From an uncultured Clostridiaceae bacterium (lineage in GTDB: Bacteria > Bacillota > Clostridia > Lachnospirales > Lachnospiraceae): a stretch of DNA of 36,833 bases. Made by a program: the position numbers and the translations under genes. How positions within the stretch are numbered: the stretch's first letter is position 1; each line of letters opens with the position of its first letter. This document shows, piece by piece, positions 2,639 to 22,760 of this stretch. The notes under the pieces were generated by a model. The model worked only from the letters and a program-made list of their open reading frames with translations. It was not told the origin of the DNA and made no database searches. The DNA lies in assembly GCA_946185495.1 (NCBI GenBank), contig CAMHJT010000006.1:1-36833 (forward strand). Reading direction: 5' to 3'.

Positions 2639-2763
2639 ATCCTGCCGCCGAAAGCGCCTCTATCCTGCTGCCGAAAGCACCTCTATCCTGCCGCCGAAAG
2701 CGCCTCTATCCTGCCGCCGAAAGCGCCTCTATCCTGCCGCCGAAAGCGCCTCAATCCTGCCGG
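2639..2763. repeat. Five tandem 23-bp repeats between modB and moaA
   Basis: A 23-bp unit (starts ATCCTGCCGCCGAAAGCG, ends CCTCT) is repeated at 2639, 2662, 2685, 2708 and 2731, with a partial copy to 2763. Copies 1, 3 and 4 are identical; copy 2 differs at two bases and copy 5 at one. The last codons and the stop of modB lie at the right end of the tract, so the repeats are essentially the modB-moaA spacer. Read on the transcribed strand each unit carries a small CGC/GCG hairpin and a purine-rich AGGATAGAGG segment. There are no spacers of unique sequence, so this is a minisatellite-like tract, not CRISPR. Confidence 0.93.
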
Positions 2764-3410
2764 TACTGCCTGCCGGTCCAGAAGTTTGCCGCGGCCATCA
2801 CCGCAAAGGAGATCATCACAATCAGAATCACCCATTGGTACGCATATTCCCTGTTGCCGCTCTGCATCGCGGTATAGACCGCAACCGACATGGTTCTCGT
2901 CCTGCCCGGCAGATTGCCCGCCAGCATGATCGTCGCGCCAAACTCCCCCAGTGCCCTGGCAAAGGAAAGCACGGTACCCGCCGCAATCCCCGGCCACGCA
3001 AGGGGAATATACACCTTAAAAAAAATCATCCGCCCGGACAGCCCATAGGTTCTGGCAGCATCCACCAATTCCCGGTCCACGCCCTCAAACGCAGCCCTGG
3101 CCATCCGGTACATCACAGGAAAGGACACAACCACTGCGGCGATCACAGCCCCCTGCCATGTAAAGACAACGCGCACCCCGATCCGTGAGAGCGCATTGCC
3201 TAAAAAAGAGTTCCTTCCAAACAGGATCAGTAGAAAAAAGCCAACCACCGTCGGCGGCAGCACCATCGGCAGCGATAAAAAAGCGTCAATCAGAAACTTT
3301 CCCCGCTTCATGGAGGATACCGCCTTCGCGCAGAGCAGTCCGGTAAAAAAAGTAAGCGCTGTGGCTGTAAGCGACACCTTCAGCGATATCCATAACGGTG
3401 AATAATCCAT
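2751..3410 (-). CDS. modB: Molybdate ABC transporter permease ModB
   Basis: ModB is the membrane channel of the molybdate importer and should work with ModA and a ModC ATPase. The 219-residue protein has about five hydrophobic segments. It carries the cytoplasmic EAA loop ELVDAARTYGLSGRMIFFKVY followed by IPLAWPGI, where the ATPase docks, and the ModB-type sequence ALGEFGATIMLAGN. Length is normal for ModB. It starts 6 nt after the modA stop. No modC gene follows: the next gene is moaA, after the 23-bp repeat tract. The ATPase must be encoded elsewhere or borrowed from another transporter. Confidence 0.94.
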   Translation of the reverse strand: MDYSPLWISLKVSLTATALTFFTGLLCAKAVSSMKRGKFLIDAFLSLPMVLPPTVVGFFLLILFGRNSFLGNALSRIGVRVVFTWQGAVIAAVVVSFPVMYRMARAAFEGVDRELVDAARTYGLSGRMIFFKVYIPLAWPGIAAGTVLSFARALGEFGATIMLAGNLPGRTRTMSVAVYTAMQSGNREYAYQWVILIVMISFAVMAAANFWTGRQYRQD

Positions 3411-3416
3411 GCCGCA

Positions 3417-4460
3417 TCACTCCACTCTTGAAAAACCATAGCTCTCAAATACGTTAAGCACTGCATCCGATTTCAGGTACTCCAAAAATTCCCTGATTTC
3501 TGCCTTATCCGCAGCCTCAGCGGTAATTCCCACCGGATAGACCACCTTTTTGCAGGATCCCTCCAGTGCCTGGGCCACAACCTTAACCCGGTCTGTCGAG
3601 CCGGCATCCGTCGCATACACCACGCCACAATCTACCTCGCCCTCTTCAACCCAGGAAAGCACAGTCCGGACATCCGTGCCAAGATTTGCTTTTGCCTGTA
3701 CCGCATCCCAGATTCCCAGCGTCGTAAAGACCTCCTGGGCATACTGCCCTGCAGGCACACTCTCCGGATCTCCCAGGCCGATGATCTCCACCTCATCCTT
3801 TGCCAGATCCTCAAAGGCTGCAATATCCTTCGTTCCATCGGCAGGCACCACCAGCACCACCTTGTTTTCCAGAAGCTGCGTGACGCTGTCCCTGTCCATC
3901 AGGTCTTCGTCTGTCAGCGCGTCCATCTGCTTTGTGGACGCAGAGAAGAAGAGATCCGCCGGAGCCCCCTCCTCGATCTGCGTCTGCAGCGCGCCGGAAC
4001 TTCCATAGGAAAAGATCAGCGTCACGTCCTCATGGGAAGCCTCATACTCAGCCTTTAACTGCTCACATACATCCGTAAGGGAAGCCGCCGCAAGGATCAC
4101 CAGCTCCGTTTTTTCTGCGCTGTCTGTACTCCGGGCAGTATCGCTGTCCTCACCCGAACCCTCTTTGCCGCCAGCGTCTGTGGCGCCGGCAGCGTCAGAA
4201 GCTCCCACCGCATCCGAAGCTCCCGACATATCCGAAGCCCCCGCCGCATCCGAAGCTTGCTCCGCATCCGAAGCTCCCTCCGCATCCGAAGCTTGCTCCG
4301 CATCCGAAGCTCCCTCCGCATCCGAAACGAAAGCCTGTTCCGAATCCGTGTCTGCTCCCACCTTGCCGTCCGCCTTGCCGCAGGCCGCGAGACCGACTGC
4401 AAGCAGCATAAACAGCGCTGGCATCCACAGCCTTTTTTCAATTGTCCTTATCCATTTCAT
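3417..4460 (-). CDS. modA: Molybdate-binding lipoprotein ModA with low-complexity linker
   Basis: The 347-residue protein captures molybdate (or tungstate) outside the membrane and delivers it to ModB. Residues 1-26 form a lipoprotein signal peptide with lipobox LAAC, the lipidated cysteine being C27. Residues about 46-99 are an Ala/Ser/Asp repeat linker. The binding domain runs from about residue 118 to the end: VILAAASLTDVC opens it, and FSYGSSGALQTQIEEGAPAD is the oxyanion site typical of ModA. AAGGAT upstream of the ATG supports the start. The linker presumably holds the domain away from the membrane through the cell wall. Which oxyanion is bound cannot be told from sequence alone. Confidence 0.94.
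   Translation of the reverse strand: MKWIRTIEKRLWMPALFMLLAVGLAACGKADGKVGADTDSEQAFVSDAEGASDAEQASDAEGASDAEQASDAAGASDMSGASDAVGASDAAGATDAGGKEGSGEDSDTARSTDSAEKTELVILAAASLTDVCEQLKAEYEASHEDVTLIFSYGSSGALQTQIEEGAPADLFFSASTKQMDALTDEDLMDRDSVTQLLENKVVLVVPADGTKDIAAFEDLAKDEVEIIGLGDPESVPAGQYAQEVFTTLGIWDAVQAKANLGTDVRTVLSWVEEGEVDCGVVYATDAGSTDRVKVVAQALEGSCKKVVYPVGITAEAADKAEIREFLEYLKSDAVLNVFESYGFSRVE
4182..4325 (-). repeat. 18-bp coding repeats in the ModA linker
   Basis: Eight tandem six-residue units of pattern Ser-Asp-Ala-(Glu/Ala)-(Gly/Gln)-Ala, encoded by 18-bp repeats, make up residues 46-93 of ModA. The first four alternate SDAEGA and SDAEQA nearly perfectly at the DNA level, suggesting recent expansion or recombination. 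The later units (SDMSGA, SDAVGA, SDAAGA) have drifted. Confidence 0.9.
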
Positions 4461-4547
4461 ATCTTTACCATCCTTATTTTCATTCTATTCCCGGAAGCCC
4501 GTCCCTCCGGGATCAGCCCGGGATCAGCCCGGTATCTCCGTCATGCG

Positions 4548-5096
4548 TCAGTTTATGCCAGGAATCACCCCTTCGGATTCCGACACCGCTGCCTGACCTA
4601 TACCACCGGCAGGAACAGCATCCGGCTCCCTGACAAAATGTCCCGTTTTCCCTCCGTCCTTTTCGAGCAGACGGATCTCGTCGATCACCATCGTTTTATC
4701 GACAGCCTTTAACATGTCATAAACCGTAAGCAGCGCCACAGAGACACCAGTCAGTGCCTCCATCTCCGCCCCCGTCCTGCCTGTCAGCCTGACGGTGCAG
4801 AAGCATTCGACACAGCATTCCTCCGGCAGGACTTCAAACTCCACTTTTACACTGGAAAGCATCAGCGTGTGGCATAACGGGATCAGATCCGGGGTCCGCT
4901 TTGCAGCCATGATCCCTGCGATCCTTGCCGTCCCCAGGACATCGCCTTTCTTTGCCCTGCCCTCTGTCACGGAAAGCACCGCCTCCCGGCTCATATGGAT
5001 CCTGCCCGCCGCGACCGCGATCCGCTGCGTCTCCTTCTTGCCGGAAATATCAACCATCACCGCGCTTCCATTTTTATCAATATGCGTAAGCTCCAT
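4548..5096 (-). CDS. moaC: Cyclic pyranopterin monophosphate synthase MoaC
   Basis: MoaC converts the MoaA product into cyclic pyranopterin monophosphate. The 182-residue protein has the family core [16 protein letters not shown], the active-site region [39 protein letters not shown] and [19 protein letters not shown]. The start at 5096 shares one base with the stop of the preceding gene (TGATG), and GGGGAG lies just upstream, so an in-frame ATG at 5162 is not preferred. After the usual family end (GGKTGHF) there is an extra tail of about 28 residues with no recognisable motif. modA follows after 87 bp, which contain a directly repeated GATCAGCCCGG. Confidence 0.95.
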
Positions 5097-6172
5097 CAGA
5101 TCATCACGCTCCCCTTTCCGAATCCGCAGTTTGGAAAATGGCAGACCGGACAGGACAGGCATAAGCCTCCCTCCCCGTAAGCCGCAAGCTCCCCTGCGGT
5201 AAGCCGTTCTCCTGCCAGAATTCTGGGCAGGACAAGGTCAAAAACCGTCCTTTTTGCATACATGATACAGCCGGGAAGCCCGAGCACCACTGTCTCCCCT
5301 GATTTTCTTCCGAACCTTTCCGCGTCAAGATAAGACAGTAAAAACATAGCCCCCGGCAGCACCGGCGCGCCGTAGGAGATGATCTCCGCACCGGTATCCC
5401 GGATCGCGCCGGGCGTCCGGTCATCCGGATCCACACTCATGCCGCCGGTCACGCAGACCAGCTCCATGCCCTTTGCGGCAAACGCCAGCACAGCGTCCCG
5501 GATCGCCTCCCTGTCATCTGGCAGAATAACCTTATCCTCCACCACAACGCCGTATTCTGAAAGCTTCGCAGTCAGGACGGGTGCAAATCCATCCCGGATC
5601 CGACCAAGCGCCACTTCATTTCCCGTAATGATCAGTCCTGCCCGCCGTATGCCAAAGGGCAGGATTGACAGCAGCGGTTCTCTTCCCGCCGCCTCTTTCG
5701 CCCGCTCCATTTTTTCCGACTCGATCACTAGGGGAATGATCCTTGTTCCGGCCAGCTTATCACCGACTTTCACCGGAAGATTTTCCTGCCTCGTCGCGAT
5801 CATCATTTCTCCAAGGGAATTGACGCCGTATAACCTCCTGCTGTCAACCTTAAATAATCCGTCCACCGCAGCCGTGATCTCTATCTTTCCCTCACTGGGT
5901 AGGGACGCTTTCATTGTCACCGGGGATGTCCCCATACAGAGATCCCTCAGGATCTCTGCGGCATCATTTTCATGCAGCAGGCTCCCTTCCCCGTCTCCAA
6001 GCTCATAGACATACAGATGCTCCTTGCCACAGGACAAAAGAACAGGGATATCCTCTTCCCTCACGATATGTCCCTTCTTGAATACAGGCCCTTTTTTTAT
6101 TCCGGGAAGGATCTGTGTAATATCATGGCTGAGCACCATCCCGGCAGCTTCCTCTGTTTTCACCAGTTTCAT
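5096..6172 (-). CDS. MoeA/MoaB-fold molybdopterin-binding protein with Cys-rich tail
   Basis: The 358-residue protein has a central MoaB/MogA-like fold (pfam MoCF_biosynth type): [15 protein letters not shown] at about residues 175-190, [17 protein letters not shown] further on, then [20 protein letters not shown]. The N-terminal half (about 1-170) lacks the usual MoeA linker domain and resembles the Clostridial 'molybdopterin-binding protein' family. The C-terminus carries [17 protein letters not shown], four cysteines in a short stretch that could bind a metal or cluster. A canonical moeA is also present (7600-8826), so this is a paralogue with a separate, unknown duty, perhaps cofactor binding, delivery or modification for a particular enzyme. 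It heads the second half of the cofactor cluster and its stop overlaps the moaC start. Confidence 0.82.
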
Positions 6173-13476: not shown

Positions 13477-15101
13477 TCATCTGTCATCATCTCTGTGTTC
13501 CAACAGCTCCGTCAGACAGGTATGCTTCTTCGTCACCTCGCTATAGTTCACGCCCACCAGCAAAACCCGGCGGTGATTTCGGAACCGCCTGATGTAATTC
13601 CTGTCCTTTATGCACTGCAGCGCATGTTCCGCCGAATGGTTGTATTTCAGTTCCAGAATGACCGGCAGATCGCCTTGGGCAAGCGGCTCGAACAAAAAAT
13701 CCACATACCCCTTTCCTGCTTTATCCTCCCGCGTAATCCTATATCGATCCAGCGCAGAAAGATATCCGACCGTCACCACGCACGCAAGGCTGTTTTCATC
13801 GTTGTATTGAAAAAACGGAATCTTCTCATCATGCAGGTTTTCGATCAAAGCAGCAACTTCAGCATCCTTCCTTTCCAGTGTCGCGTTCAAAAGCTTCCTG
13901 GATTCCTCAATCGTCTGTTTCAGTCCCAGTGACCGAGATGCCAATGCCTCTTGAAATTTCATCATCAGCTCGTGATTCGGAATCCGCAACTCATCCTTGT
14001 GATAAGTCAGAAAGCCATATACCACCATGGCCGAAAAAATCTCATCCCTTGTGCTGATCTGTGTCTTCTCCACAGCAAATCCCGAAAGCCTGATAGAAAG
14101 GGACTCCCCTCCCACCATGCGGATGACATCCTCCCGAACATCCTGCACATTATGCCGGATCAGATCCTGTACCTCATTCATCGGTCCGGTGCCTGTCCAG
14201 TTGTTCTGGCAGCATCCTTCCGCAAGCGCCTTGGAGACAGAAGCTGGATTAAACACATGCATCCCATCATATCCCCGCACATATCCGTCATACCAGAATG
14301 ACAACTCCTCCAGCGTAGGAGATTGAAATCCCTTTTCCCGCATCTTATGACGGATCTCATCCTTTGTCAGACCGAAATAAGGATAAAACATCGCATCCTG
14401 AAAGGACGTAAACTCATGAAACATATTGGGGGGGAACCGCTGGAATATTTTGCGATGGGCAAAATTCCGGTCATGTAAGCAAAATGCACGTATTTCTTAT
14501 CCTTCAGCAGCGCTTTCAGCAGATCAAGGTACGCGATCTTGTCCTCCACGGCCATAAAACGCATTTCAAAAACAGCATCCCACTCATCGATCACAAAAAT
14601 ATAGCTGTCCCCGGTCTTCTCCAGGATCTCCGGAATAGACGCGTCGGCATGGAATGATAAGTCCGGATACGCCTCCGTAATGTCCTCCAGCATCCGCCTG
14701 TAAAAAGCGCTGATAAAATCCTCATAGGATTTTGTCTTCTCCGTCACAAGATCGATCATGTTGAGACGGAACACCCTGTGCTTTCCCTGTTCGGACCAGC
14801 ATACGGGCAAGTCCGGATCTTCTCTTAACGCCGCCAGCTGCTCTTCCTTCCGCTTCCCGATCGCAAGCCCCTCAAACAGGCTTCTGCTCTCCCGTGCTGT
14901 TGCCTGATCAAAAAAGGCGGCAATCATGTTGGCAGCTGTAGACTTTCCAAAACGCCTCGGACGCGTAATACAGATATAAGGATTGATCTCCTGCGAATAC
15001 CTGTAAACCTCCTCGATCAACAGGCTTTTATCCATATATGTTTTTTTGCGCGCCTCTTTCCTGAACAGCGCGTATCCCGTTCCGCTATTTAGAAAATTCA
15101 T
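13477..15101 (-). pseudogene. AAA-ATPase-like / PD-(D/E)XK nuclease family gene, frameshifted in a G7 tract
   Basis: Two adjoining frames make one protein of the AAA-ATPase_like plus PDDEXK_9 family, common and mobile in gut anaerobes and of unknown role. The first part (15101 to about 14430) has a Walker A-like RPRRFGKST and Walker B FVIDEWDAVF. The second part (to 13477) has the nuclease-like core, Asp in YVDFLFEP and ILELKYNHS. The frames meet at a run of seven G on the plus strand (14428-14434). With eight, the protein would read SSGSPPNMFHEF and be about 541 residues, the family's usual size. The single-base change could be a real disruption, slippage at a homopolymer, or a sequencing error. 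It starts 6 nt after the recQ stop and ends 29 nt before the formate dehydrogenase genes. Confidence 0.85.
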
Positions 15102-17696: not shown

Positions 17697-17774
17697 GTAC
17701 TTTTTTTATTTTTTTTAAATTTTTTTTTAGACCTTTTTTTCAGGCTTTCTCAGGCTCCGAAGTTTGAGACGATT

Positions 17775-17850
17775 GAGATGACACAACAGCCGGCATGGAG
17801 CCCAAACAGCCGGACACCGTATGACCTCCTGTCATCTCTGTGTCCGGCTG
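17775..17850. repeat. 76-bp palindromic repeat, copy 1
   Basis: This sequence matches 21827-21902 at 66 of 76 positions. Its core is a large hairpin: CAGCCGGACAC (17807-17817) pairs with GTGTCCGGCTG (17840-17850), extended here by AAA/TTT to 14 bp, with an inner ATGAC/GTCAT stem. GAGATGACA at the left end can instead pair with TGTCATCTC (17830-17838), giving an alternative fold. It overlaps the 3' end of the leucine-rich-repeat pseudogene and could act as a transcription terminator, though only three T follow. Confidence 0.85.
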
Positions 17851-18154
17851 TTTCGTTAGTCCGATTCTTAAATTGATCTGATCCTTGCTTTTTTTCAAAC
17901 CTTTCTTCACAAACAATTTTTTGTAAGTCTTCTTCATGCTCGACGGCACCTTGATCACCGTCTTCGGGCCAAGGCCCTTGAACGCACCGCGGGACAGTGT
18001 CTTAGATGTCAGCCCGGTACTTCTGACTGTCAGCATCCTTAATTTTTTACACCCGTTAAATGCGTTGCTTCCAATTTCCCTTACGTTTTTGGGAAGGGAG
18101 AGCACATTCAACTTCGCGCAGCCATAAAAGGCTTGGCTATTTTATAATTCATGG

Positions 18155-18183
18155 TTGACAAAAGAACATATGTTTGCTATAAT
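18155..18183 (+). promoter_or_regulatory. Perfect consensus promoter inside the mobile element
   Basis: TTGACA (18155-18160), a 17-nt spacer and TATAAT (18178-18183) match the housekeeping sigma consensus at all twelve positions. Transcription would begin near 18190 and run inward across the element, antisense to the host gene. The -35 box overlaps the inner edge of the left terminal repeat. No open reading frame of note follows, which points to a non-coding RNA product. Confidence 0.85.
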
Positions 18184-18189
18184 ACTTTA

Positions 18190-18373
18190 TATCGAATAAA
18201 AGATATGGGGTTACTTTCTAAAACATCCTTGAATAGTGTAAAATCTTAAAGGTAAAGGCCGAAACCTAACAAAGGCCTTGTTCGATATTCAAATTATACA
18301 GGTAGCCTGAGTCACATCAGGTAGAGGCATTAGGCTTATGCCATTAAAAGAGCGGAACAGAATTTTGTTCCGT
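18190..18373 (+). ncRNA. Candidate structured RNA encoded by the mobile element
   Basis: About 185 nt follow the consensus promoter. ATATCGAA (18189-18196) is exactly complementary to TTCGATAT (18281-18288), forming a long-range closing helix. Inside it AAGGCC (18255-18260) pairs with GGCCTT (18274-18279), and its loop contains ACCT (18264-18267), complementary to AGGT just 5' of the stem (18250-18253), a possible pseudoknot. Downstream are hairpins CCTGA/TCAGG (18306-18321) and GGCAT/ATGCC (18326-18342). The final stem CGGAACA/TGTTCCG (18353-18372) could end the transcript, although its T-run is weak. I do not identify the class; autonomous Clostridial RNAs such as raiA, or transposon-associated guide RNAs, are worth testing. 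The exact ends are estimates. Confidence 0.65.
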
Positions 18374-18977
18374 GAGTTTATAAATATCAACCACGAGTTA
18401 GTAAATAGCCAAAGGCTTTATTTCCAATGGACGAGACATTTTCTCCCATCGTCACGCTTTTCAGGTTTTTGCAATTTGAAAACACAGATTCCCCGATCAT
18501 CCTGACATTCTTGCCAATTGCCACCTTCTTAAGCTTCCGGTTGCCCTCAAACGCTCCTTCGTCAATTGAAACAACCGAATAGCTGATTCCATCTACGATC
18601 ATGCTGTCCGGAATCGATACCGATGTACAGTCAGCCGGACAAAGCACATATTCCGCTGTGCGTTTCTGTGTGGATGTGATACAGTATAAATTCCCCTTCT
18701 GATCCTCGATCATCTGGCCATCTTTTACAACGTCCGAATCCCTGTTCTGTGTTCCAATGCCCACTTGCCTCTGAGTCTCTTCAGCCGCCTGACTTACCGC
18801 CTCATCAAAGGACACATTTGCCGTGTTCTCCTCTGATGCCGGAACCGGCTCCGAGATAATTTCTCTGCCAGTATCAGCTGATGATCTTTCCATCTCATCT
18901 GGTTCATATTCTACACGGCCTGTAGGCTGCTCCACTCCAATGGATCCTTCATCCATATTATCTGCTGTCTTTTCTGC

Positions 18978-19184
18978 AGACTTTTCCATGAGATCATTAT
19001 TTCCAGTCGTAGTGTTCGGCTCTCTCACAGGATCCTCTGTGGTCGCCTCCTCATTCACAATATCATTATTTCCTGCCGCAGCAGCTGGCTCTCTCACCGG
19101 TTCCTCTGTGGTCGCCTCTTCCTTCACAATATCATTATTTCCTACCGCAGCAGCTGGCTCTCTCGCCGATTCCTCTGTGGTCGC
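18978..19184 (-). repeat. Three 69-bp coding repeats in the leucine-rich-repeat pseudogene
   Basis: Three tandem 23-residue units (pattern ATTEE-x-x-REP...GNNDIV-x-EE) precede the leucine-rich part. They are close but not identical, and part of a fourth unit lies upstream (AAGNDNLVKK). Such acidic Thr/Pro-rich repeats usually form wall-spanning stalks. Confidence 0.85.
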
Positions 19185-19404
19185 CTTCTTCACAAGATTG
19201 TCGTTTCCTGCCGCAATGGAAGACTCACTTTCCTGATCCTATGCAGCAGGCTCCACCATTTCAACGTCATCGTCTGCCTCCGCAGTATCAGCTTCCTCTT
19301 CCTTCTCCCTTCCCTTCAGCGCAGGGATCAATTCCTTTTCCACATGCCCGGCGTCGTTCCGGCATACCCGGATCCTCAATCCCTCCTTTTCCGGCGTTGG
19401 CTCC

Positions 19405-21994: not shown

Positions 21995-22579
21995 TCAATT
22001 TTCATATTCTTTTACGCCTGTAAGATCAGCTATTCTTTCATAATCCCAGTACTTGTTAGACCAGTGATAGCAGATATCTCTTCTCTTCTTAAAAATCCTA
22101 AACGGTTCATTTGAGTTGTCATATACATGCAGGATATCGCACACTTTAACCAACTGCGGTATCAACGCCAATGCCTTCGCATAGCGTGAACGAATCTTGT
22201 CTTCCGGTACTCCATGTCCGCCAAGCGCTTCCCTTGCGTTTACTCTTGCGACATTAATGCCCGCATCTATTGTAAGTACATATATTCCTCTGACAAAATA
22301 TCCATTCTCCCTTGCCTTCTTTAAAAGGTTAAGATTCCGCTCTGTTGATAATACAGTCTCAAAAGTAAAATCCCTTTTCTCCGCTATCATTTTCTCCCGA
22401 AGTTCTTCAGCTTTTATGGCTGCTTCAAGATCACTACAGAGAGTTGTTTTCTTTATGTCATCAGCATTTATATAGTCTCCAACCGTCTTTGCCATTCGAG
22501 TAATTGTAGATTTCCCACTTCCATTCGGCCCCGCAAACACCATGACTTCAGGAAGCTTTATTCGGTTATTATCCGACAT
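21995..22579 (-). CDS. Zeta-toxin-like P-loop kinase
   Basis: The 194-residue protein has Walker A VFAGPNGSGKST near the N-terminus, FTFETVLSTERN, and the zeta/UNAG-kinase-like block ARVNAREALGGHGVPEDK followed by IRSRYAKAL and YDNSNEPFRIF. Family members phosphorylate UDP-N-acetylglucosamine or related small molecules and can poison cell-wall synthesis; some chromosomal ones are ordinary kinases. The start at 22579 has GGGAGG at good spacing and overlaps the preceding small gene by 11 bp, the arrangement of an antitoxin-toxin pair. An in-frame ATG at 22630 lies inside the small gene and is less likely. The toxin role is inferred from family and layout. Confidence 0.85.
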   Translation of the reverse strand: MSDNNRIKLPEVMVFAGPNGSGKSTITRMAKTVGDYINADDIKKTTLCSDLEAAIKAEELREKMIAEKRDFTFETVLSTERNLNLLKKARENGYFVRGIYVLTIDAGINVARVNAREALGGHGVPEDKIRSRYAKALALIPQLVKVCDILHVYDNSNEPFRIFKKRRDICYHWSNKYWDYERIADLTGVKEYEN

Positions 22580-22760
22580 ACTCTCGCCTCCCGTCAGGAA
22601 ATTCAAGATACGCCTGCTTCCTTTCATCATCGTATCCTGCTACCGGCAAACCTTTGATTTTTCTAATCTCATTATCTATTCTGATTGACTCCTTAAACCT
22701 TTGTGTCAATTCCTCATCAGTAATCCCACAAGTAGAATCCAATTCATTTGTCACGGTCAT
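22569..22760 (-). CDS. Small protein preceding zeta-like kinase, putative antitoxin
   Basis: The 63-residue protein, rich in charged residues, overlaps the kinase gene by 11 bp and has AGGAGG just before its ATG (22760). It has no helix-turn-helix that I can see. The middle (DEELTQRFKESIRIDNEIRK) is probably helical and the C-terminal part reads AYLEFPDGRREYVG. I do not recognise a family. Size, order and overlap suggest the neutralising partner of the kinase. Confidence 0.7.
   Translation of the reverse strand: MTVTNELDSTCGITDEELTQRFKESIRIDNEIRKIKGLPVAGYDDERKQAYLEFPDGRREYVG

Follow-up and report, generated by a model that had tools for sequence, protein, structure and literature searches.

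The 276-bp element in the middle of the window, the whole 36,833-nucleotide stretch of DNA that was analysed, is probably a non-autonomous mini-derivative of a tnpB-carrying IS1595 transposon. It would carry a LexA-repressed, stand-alone omegaRNA that takes its guide from the flanking DNA, with TnpB and the transposase supplied in trans. Judged from its sequence, the feature is best filed as a MITE of an IS1595-TnpB element carrying a stand-alone omegaRNA-like gene. Its parts are as follows (window coordinates; G, C and L numbers in the text are our handles for genomes, contigs and loci):

17740-19193, minus strand: leucine-rich-repeat gene split by the MITE into the pieces 18387-19193 and 17740-18111.
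18127-18134, no strand: left copy of the target duplication, AAAGGCTT; its first A closes a TA^A motif (18125-18127), the putative TnpB target-adjacent motif.
18135-18410, plus strand: whole element, a MITE of 276 bp with inverted ends, a target duplication and 18 matches in its own genome.
18135-18158, plus strand: left terminal inverted repeat, GGCTATTTTATAATTCATGGTTGA, matching the right end at 20 of 24 bases.
18155-18183, plus strand: promoter TTGACA-17-TATAAT, homologous with the parental transposase promoter.
18163-18176, plus strand: LexA (SOS) box AGAACATATGTTTG in the promoter spacer, present in 54 of 55 left ends against a shuffled rate of 0.2%.
18189-18301, plus strand: 5' half of the RNA, in MITE copies only; helix 18189-18196/18281-18288 and pseudoknot-like AGGT/ACCT with AGGCC/GGCCT, conserved and without covariation.
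18302-18410, plus strand: 3' half, matching the parent from the tnpB stop codon to the right end; putative omegaRNA scaffold.
18326-18342, plus strand: helix B, GGCAT/ATGCC, three of its five pairs changed in a compensatory way; the loop (18331-18337) is able to form a pseudoknot with 18303-18309.
18352-18373, plus strand: hairpin C, GCGGAACAG-AATT-TTGTTCCGT, a hairpin in all 26 aligned sequences, 23 of them distinct.
18387-18410, plus strand: right terminal inverted repeat, TCAACCACGAGTTAGTAAATAGCC, from an inverted-repeat search and the alignment of right ends.
Within 18387-18410, plus strand: small stem-loop CAAC CACGA GTT in the right inverted repeat, about 10 nt or less from the guide start, found by inspection.
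18411-18418, no strand: right copy of the target duplication, AAAGGCTT, identical to the opening bases of the putative guide.
18411-18430, plus strand: flanking DNA outside the element as would-be guide, its length assumed, placed according to the TnpB omegaRNA anatomy given in PMC10278001.

The first-pass annotation of this DNA described a mobile unit that has no protein gene, holds a promoter and a structured RNA, and exists in many copies, and that description was borne out. The 35-nt arms at 18124-18158 and 18387-18421 form an inverted repeat that is 77% complementary, and the 24-nt ends proper lie inside an 8-bp target duplication. Removal of the MITE and one copy of the duplication leaves the leucine-rich-repeat frame open, with 404 codons from stop to stop versus 283. 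The search for copies that the annotation had proposed returned 18 blastn matches in the element's own genome, the window copy included, of which 4 span at least 279 of the 301 query bases; many lie at contig ends and several copies are truncated. The contigs C1, C17, C46, C126, C131 and C154 of this genome start or stop within MITE copies and, because contigs break there, the draft understates both the number of copies and the presence of any intact parent. Among the 397 genomes of the family, 27 match the MITE at E <= 0.001, mostly over short stretches; longer matches beyond its own genome are those at 81% in G027 and right-half matches in other genera. At the loci examined, short matches at query positions 19-50 proved to belong to promoters of other genes that contain a LexA box and not to copies of the element. 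Short copies in G117 were considered as omegaRNA-only units with a fixed left border; the borders of further copies varied, so these are decayed ends. No match to the element was found in plasmids and phages (blastn) or in viral contigs (two pattern scans). The element is thus a short sequence without a transposase that has inverted ends, a target duplication, several copies and an identifiable parent. Elsewhere in the window, two overlapping minus-strand frames (13477-14424 and 14367-15101) look by eye like two parts of one frameshifted AAA-ATPase-like gene, and a further minus-strand frame (21995-22630) resembles a zeta-toxin-like kinase (AGPNGSGKSTI, by eye).

The parent, which the first-pass annotation had missed together with the TA^A rule at its insertion sites, is an IS1595-family transposon that also encodes TnpB. 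Contig C182 of the same genome holds a 50-bp match to the left end followed by the remains of an IS1595-type transposase, and in G090 and G128 the DNA upstream of a match to the right half of the MITE is tnpB, its stop codon lying inside GTAGCCTGA. Both of these genomes contain complete elements (L066, positions 2702-5302, in G090 and L067 in G128), in which the left end and a LexA-box promoter are followed by a DDE transposase, tnpB and a structured 3' region that reaches the right end. The transposases, of 351 and 348 amino acids, score 37.1 and 38.7 bits with PF12762 (cut-off 27) and 153.7 and 152.8 bits with NF033547 (cut-off 75), placing them in the IS1595 family as ISXO2-like DDE enzymes. 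The tnpB products, of 442 and 459 amino acids, are over the cut-off of NF040570 (guided_TnpB). Searched with these two transposases, 84,980 species genomes yielded 47 loci, titled Lachnospiraceae, Clostridiales or other Clostridia, with one each from Eubacterium, Ruminococcaceae and Scatonaster; many come from rumen. In 21 of the 47, tnpB lies directly behind the transposase, and the other 26 end at most 47 nt past the last transposase match, so that tnpB always follows within the visible sequence. Exact target duplications flank 11 of the 15 loci with both ends (8 bp at seven, 9 bp at four); the remaining four are L087, L094, L107 and L123, two of which are near matches by eye. Inverted ends and an 8-bp target duplication are traits of the IS1595 family (ISfinder), and the parent has them. 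It does not belong to IS200/IS605 or IS607, as its transposase is of the IS1595 type, not a Y1 or serine recombinase, and its duplication is of 8-9 bp. The MITE retains the parental ends, promoter and 3' region, while its own 5' RNA half takes the place of both genes.

Neither an intact transposase nor an intact TnpB was found in the MITE's own draft genome, where PF12762 gave no match and a protein search recovered only decayed pieces of the two. A TnpB of the parental family was likewise not found in the G027 and G281 drafts, both of which hold MITE copies. In the draft of G102, several contig edges bear tnpB-side right ends although no TnpB was found; since drafts break at these repeats, absence of TnpB from drafts is weak evidence, though unfavourable. 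PMC10278001 states that it omitted TnpBs whose transposase is neither a Y1 nor a serine recombinase, and hence such TnpBs are known in general. No report of an IS1595 and TnpB pairing or of an omegaRNA-only MITE was found in the open-licence literature.

The parental TnpB has the RuvC-I (GIDLG) and RuvC-III (NADVN) residues. In an alignment with Cas12f the usual RuvC-II glutamate is out of place (IVIGNN versus IQMERL), and an invariant glutamate lies in an ESYTS motif. We propose that the ESYTS glutamate may stand in for that of RuvC-II. One active ortholog of a rearranged TnpB clade is described in PMC10278001. An AlphaFold model of the protein, of low confidence (mean pLDDT 63), matches Cas12f and TnpB complexes, with a best E of 2e-14.

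The 3' half of the MITE appears to be the omegaRNA-like right-end region of the parental tnpB. In the account of TnpB omegaRNA anatomy in PMC10278001, the RNA occupies the stretch between the end of tnpB and the element's right end, and the flank serves as guide. The scaffold has this position in the parents, and the window copy has it without tnpB: its right 109 nt (18302-18410) align with parental right ends in a set of 26 sequences, made up of 19 tnpB-side right ends and MITE copies. All five pairs of helix B are formed in 100% of alignment cells, three of them with changes on both sides, and the pseudoknot helix between the loop of helix B and TAGCCTG is paired in 94.9%, with no double changes. 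The 3' structure as a whole surpasses 500 of 500 shuffles in both percent paired and covariation score. The sequence of hairpin C ranges from GCGGAACA/TGTTCCGT to CCGGGGTG-GAAA-CACTTCGG and others. Its first six pairs are 94.2% standard against at most 88.4% in shuffles, although the pairs of each sequence were positioned by its own fold, a choice that favours pairing. Hairpin C was also considered as a terminator and rejected, being terminator-like on the minus strand only; on the plus strand no T run follows it, as a read-through guide RNA would need. The stem-loops are thus conserved, one of them within about 10 nt of the candidate guide, and the 13 MITE right flanks available are 13 distinct sequences, so that this guide lies outside the element and differs from copy to copy. 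The annotation's outline of an RNA-bearing mobile unit stands, but the RNA is only in part a cargo of its own: the 3' half, by its homology with the parental tnpB right end, is a piece of the parent, not something captured. Its suggestion of a known RNA class held between transposon ends was the nearest guess, in that the homology points to omegaRNA, a class that Rfam does not hold as such.

The 5' half is a different matter. The predicted fold of 18187-18373 has an energy of -45.7 kcal/mol, where shuffled sequences average -34.6 (z -2.8, with 3 of 200 shuffles as good); the corresponding values are z -1.7 and 12 of 200 for the minus strand of the same stretch, and z -2.0 and 7 of 200 for the longer stretch 18189-18426. 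The exact 8-bp helix (ATATCGAA/TTCGATAT) and the AGGT/ACCT pairing (18250-18253 with 18264-18267) are in the sequence as the annotation described them, in what turns out to be the MITE-specific half. The compensatory changes it called for occur in helix B and hairpin C and are lacking from the 5'-half helices among 9 aligned copies; as these helices are invariant, covariation neither supports nor denies them. By blast the 5' half was not found in the parental loci at hand, and its covariance model found it in 3 of the 397 family genomes (its own, G027 and G101): as MITE copies in G027 and as a remnant in G101, with a partial version seen by eye in G281. The 3' strand of the long helix (GGCCT..TGTTCGATAT, window 18189-18288) resembles an inverted copy of the parental 5' leader (ATATCGAACA..AGGCC), and the 5' half may have arisen by inverted duplication of that leader.

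Two other accounts of the RNA turn on this half. That an unrelated structured RNA, such as a riboswitch, a bridge RNA, raiA or HEARO, was captured between transposon ends is hardly credible. The searches made gave no source for the 5' half, as capture would allow, but the cmscan check suggested in the annotation (raiA, HEARO and others) matched no Rfam family in the element at the gathering score, the sole match in the window being a tRNA, and permissive settings added three chance matches (E 5.3 to 6.9). The homology of the 3' half with the tnpB right end and a parental transposase that is DDE IS1595, not of the IS110 type, also speak against capture. It is quite improbable, too, that the RNA, instead of being a guide, regulates parental expression as an antisense RNA, a decoy or a LexA sponge. 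The strand TGTTCGATAT does resemble by eye the -10 region of parental left ends and many copies bear a LexA box, but blast of the 5' half revealed no antisense complementarity beyond short stretches, and a regulator would leave the right-junction rule and the conserved scaffold unexplained.

The promoter is as the first-pass annotation gave it: TTGACA (18155-18160), a 17-nt spacer and TATAAT (18178-18183) agree with the consensus at 12 of 12 positions, and a TG precedes the second hexamer. The LexA box within it had been missed. Called with the Firmicutes LexA consensus, GAAC-N4-GTTC with at most one mismatch lies between -35 and -10 in 54 of 55 left ends (0.2% of shuffled spacers), 42 of them with exact half-sites, and 27 left ends have a second box 3' of the -10 hexamer. 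In the element's own genome a LexA-type box is also found upstream of what we take, from its translation, to be recA, and in congeners such boxes occur in promoters of the lexA region, whose genes we named from their translations. Counted over its own genome the pattern is unenriched (9 matches versus 10 for the reversed pattern), so that the evidence rests on its placement in promoters. A LexA box overlapping a promoter is the sequence layout of an SOS promoter, and the MITE promoter is very likely designed for SOS control. Outside this family of elements, L062 (G374:C91, about 1501-1538) encodes a TnpB-like protein of ordinary IS200/IS605 look (by eye) that begins directly 3' of a LexA-box promoter, GAACATATGTTTGATATAAT, and a second match of this kind lies in G374:C42; SOS control of TnpB may extend beyond the IS1595 type.

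With promoter, scaffold and 5' half described, it can be asked whether the MITE is a passive deletion derivative, in which the omegaRNA region was kept as the neighbour of the right end and the promoter and RNA structure are relics of an unused RNA. MITEs as a rule retain parental ends, its own draft has no intact tnpB, several copies are truncated, the 5' helices are without covariation, and in one MITE copy (L004) promoter and box have decayed (TCGATA..TGCAGT), all of which such an origin would accommodate. Against it, the retained 3' region of about 109 nt goes far beyond the 24-bp end, and of 8 MITE left ends examined, 7 still have both the promoter and the LexA box. In addition, hairpin C of copy L008 has a G-C to A-U double change relative to the other MITE copies, and the 5' half, not found in parents, is common to MITEs of different genera. 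The annotation had named copies that keep their ends and lose helices or promoter as adverse to its reading. Compensatory changes preserve helix B and the terminal hairpin, and the promoter persists in most full left ends and is decayed in L004. On balance we consider passive descent unlikely.

These elements also follow a rule at their insertion sites. TAA, its last A being the first base of the duplication, is present in 54 of 55 left flanks, starting at -10 in 35 and at -11 in 19, which puts TA^A 8 or 9 bp ahead of the left end; at other offsets TAA occurs in 0-2 of 55. The 55 left ends come from 58 pattern matches, of which two chance matches and L018, a 27-bp fragment with neither promoter nor TAA, were dropped (with L018 the count is 54 of 56), and the sole exception retained is L067. 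On the other side, all 32 right ends are followed directly by an A. These remain from 41 pattern matches after nine were dropped, namely reversed left ends, chance matches, the double end of L101, and L068, which was lost to a narrow filter and also starts with A. At L101, near 842-873, a 32-bp palindrome, GGCTATTTTCAACTCTGTAGTTGAAAATAGCC, consists of two right ends head to head and is perhaps a minimal double-end remnant. For the MITEs alone, TA^A is present in 8 of 8 left flanks and A follows 13 of 13 right ends. The mirrored motif TTA occurs in 10 of 33 right flanks (33 ends were taken for this count), against about 0-2 of 33 at other offsets. The rule is therefore one-sided (54 of 55 versus 10 of 33, Fisher p 2e-12), with the reservation that the ends compared are related by descent and their counts are not independent events; across the 11 complete sites, TA^A is found at 10 and the mirrored TTA at 3 (p 0.0075). 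Duplications of 8 and 9 bp differ on the left side only, and the right junction always begins at A. A fixed AT-rich motif 5' of the putative target is also what an omegaRNA element would be expected to have.

In the simplest reading of these flanks, the transposase would favour TAA..TTA, and TnpB, needing TA(A) before a guide match, would select or drive one orientation. That TA^A reflects the transposase's target taste alone, with TnpB having no role in where copies lie, seems to us rather doubtful. The TTA excess on the right does show a favoured TAA..TTA, so that part of the TA^A rule belongs to the transposase itself. The rule is nonetheless near absolute on one side only, and the variation in duplication length is absorbed on the left while the right junction stays fixed at A; neither would come from a symmetric enzyme unless its two ends were treated differently. 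TA^A is found at 1 of 5 sites of the nearest named IS, ISSag10 (42.5% identity, lnu(C), no tnpB), and at 0 of 2 sites of a similar element in G251, but IS1595 transposases vary in taste and at that identity ISSag10 is a weak control. Elements of this kind, IS1595-family with a passenger lincosamide nucleotidyltransferase, were seen at L146-L148 (G251, a look-alike) and on plasmids at L179-L182 and L217 (annotated there as ISSag10/lnu(C)).

At the window copy, the empty site would read CATA^AAAGGCTTTATTTCCAATGG, the motif followed by a full match to the putative guide. In the filled site, AGCC precedes the right-hand match, and on the left only 8 matching bases stand behind the motif; another TnpB is reported in PMC10278001 to need about 12 guide bases.

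Taken together, the mini-derivative proposed at the outset would operate as follows. Upon DNA damage, the LexA-repressed promoter would yield the stand-alone omegaRNA, which would read through the right end and take the first bases of the flank as its guide. An autonomous copy would provide TnpB in trans, and the MITE RNA would then direct cutting of any chromosome copy in which the site (TA^A plus target) is still empty; the MITE would be restored when the break is repaired from the filled copy. Cutting of the filled site itself would be avoided, since TA is missing in front of the guide match at the right junction and the match at the left junction covers only 8-9 guide bases. Transposition to new sites would rely on an IS1595-type transposase acting in trans. 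More tentatively, it is possible that the MITE is a guide-RNA-only homing element: an SOS-controlled unit that would gain a new locus-specific guide with each insertion and use a borrowed TnpB to cut empty alleles, and so a protein-free, RNA-guided drive. The 5' half could then be a module of its own, replacing a tnpB-encoded part of the scaffold or competing for the TnpB of the autonomous element.

Knowledge of TnpB has so far been founded on elements that Y1 or serine recombinases mobilise. A DDE transposase of the cut-and-paste type that leaves target duplications, paired with TnpB, allows a role of TnpB in filtering or driving insertions to be examined apart from the transposase, and the one-sided TA^A would be a readable trace of such a role. 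Driven by a promoter and encoding no protein, an omegaRNA element would amount to a naturally occurring parasite of an RNA-guided nuclease and a natural model for designing compact guides, and the LexA box would link transposition and guide production to DNA damage, when recombination repair is at hand.

Among known systems, the closest to the RNA is the TnpB omegaRNA (reRNA) of IS200/IS605 and IS607, which, as described in PMC10278001, likewise fills the stretch between the tnpB end and the right end, with conserved stem-loops, one of them near the guide start, a guide from the flank and an AT-rich 5' motif. The elements here differ in their DDE transposase, inverted ends and target duplication, and in a MITE RNA with its own promoter and no tnpB. 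IS1595-family elements with passengers, such as ISSag10 with lnu(C), share the transposase family, the 8-bp duplication and ends of the form GGCTNTT..; here, however, the passenger is tnpB with its omegaRNA, and a LexA box and the one-sided TA^A are added. Like other insertion-sequence MITEs, the window element is short, lacks an open reading frame, has inverted ends and a target duplication, and exists in many copies mobilised in trans, but unlike them it is predicted to give a promoter-driven transcript that resembles a guide RNA. Fanzor1 of eukaryotic DDE transposons, as presented in PMC10711439, also combines a TnpB-related nuclease with a DDE transposase, whereas the present pairing is bacterial, of the IS1595 type, and has an RNA-only derivative. 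The bridge RNA or seekRNA of IS110/IS1111 is, in the descriptions we draw on, another structured noncoding RNA of an insertion sequence; it guides a DEDD recombinase, whereas the relevant protein here is TnpB. Finally, the parental TnpB resembles CRISPR-Cas12f in sequence and fold, while its gene order is that of a transposon.
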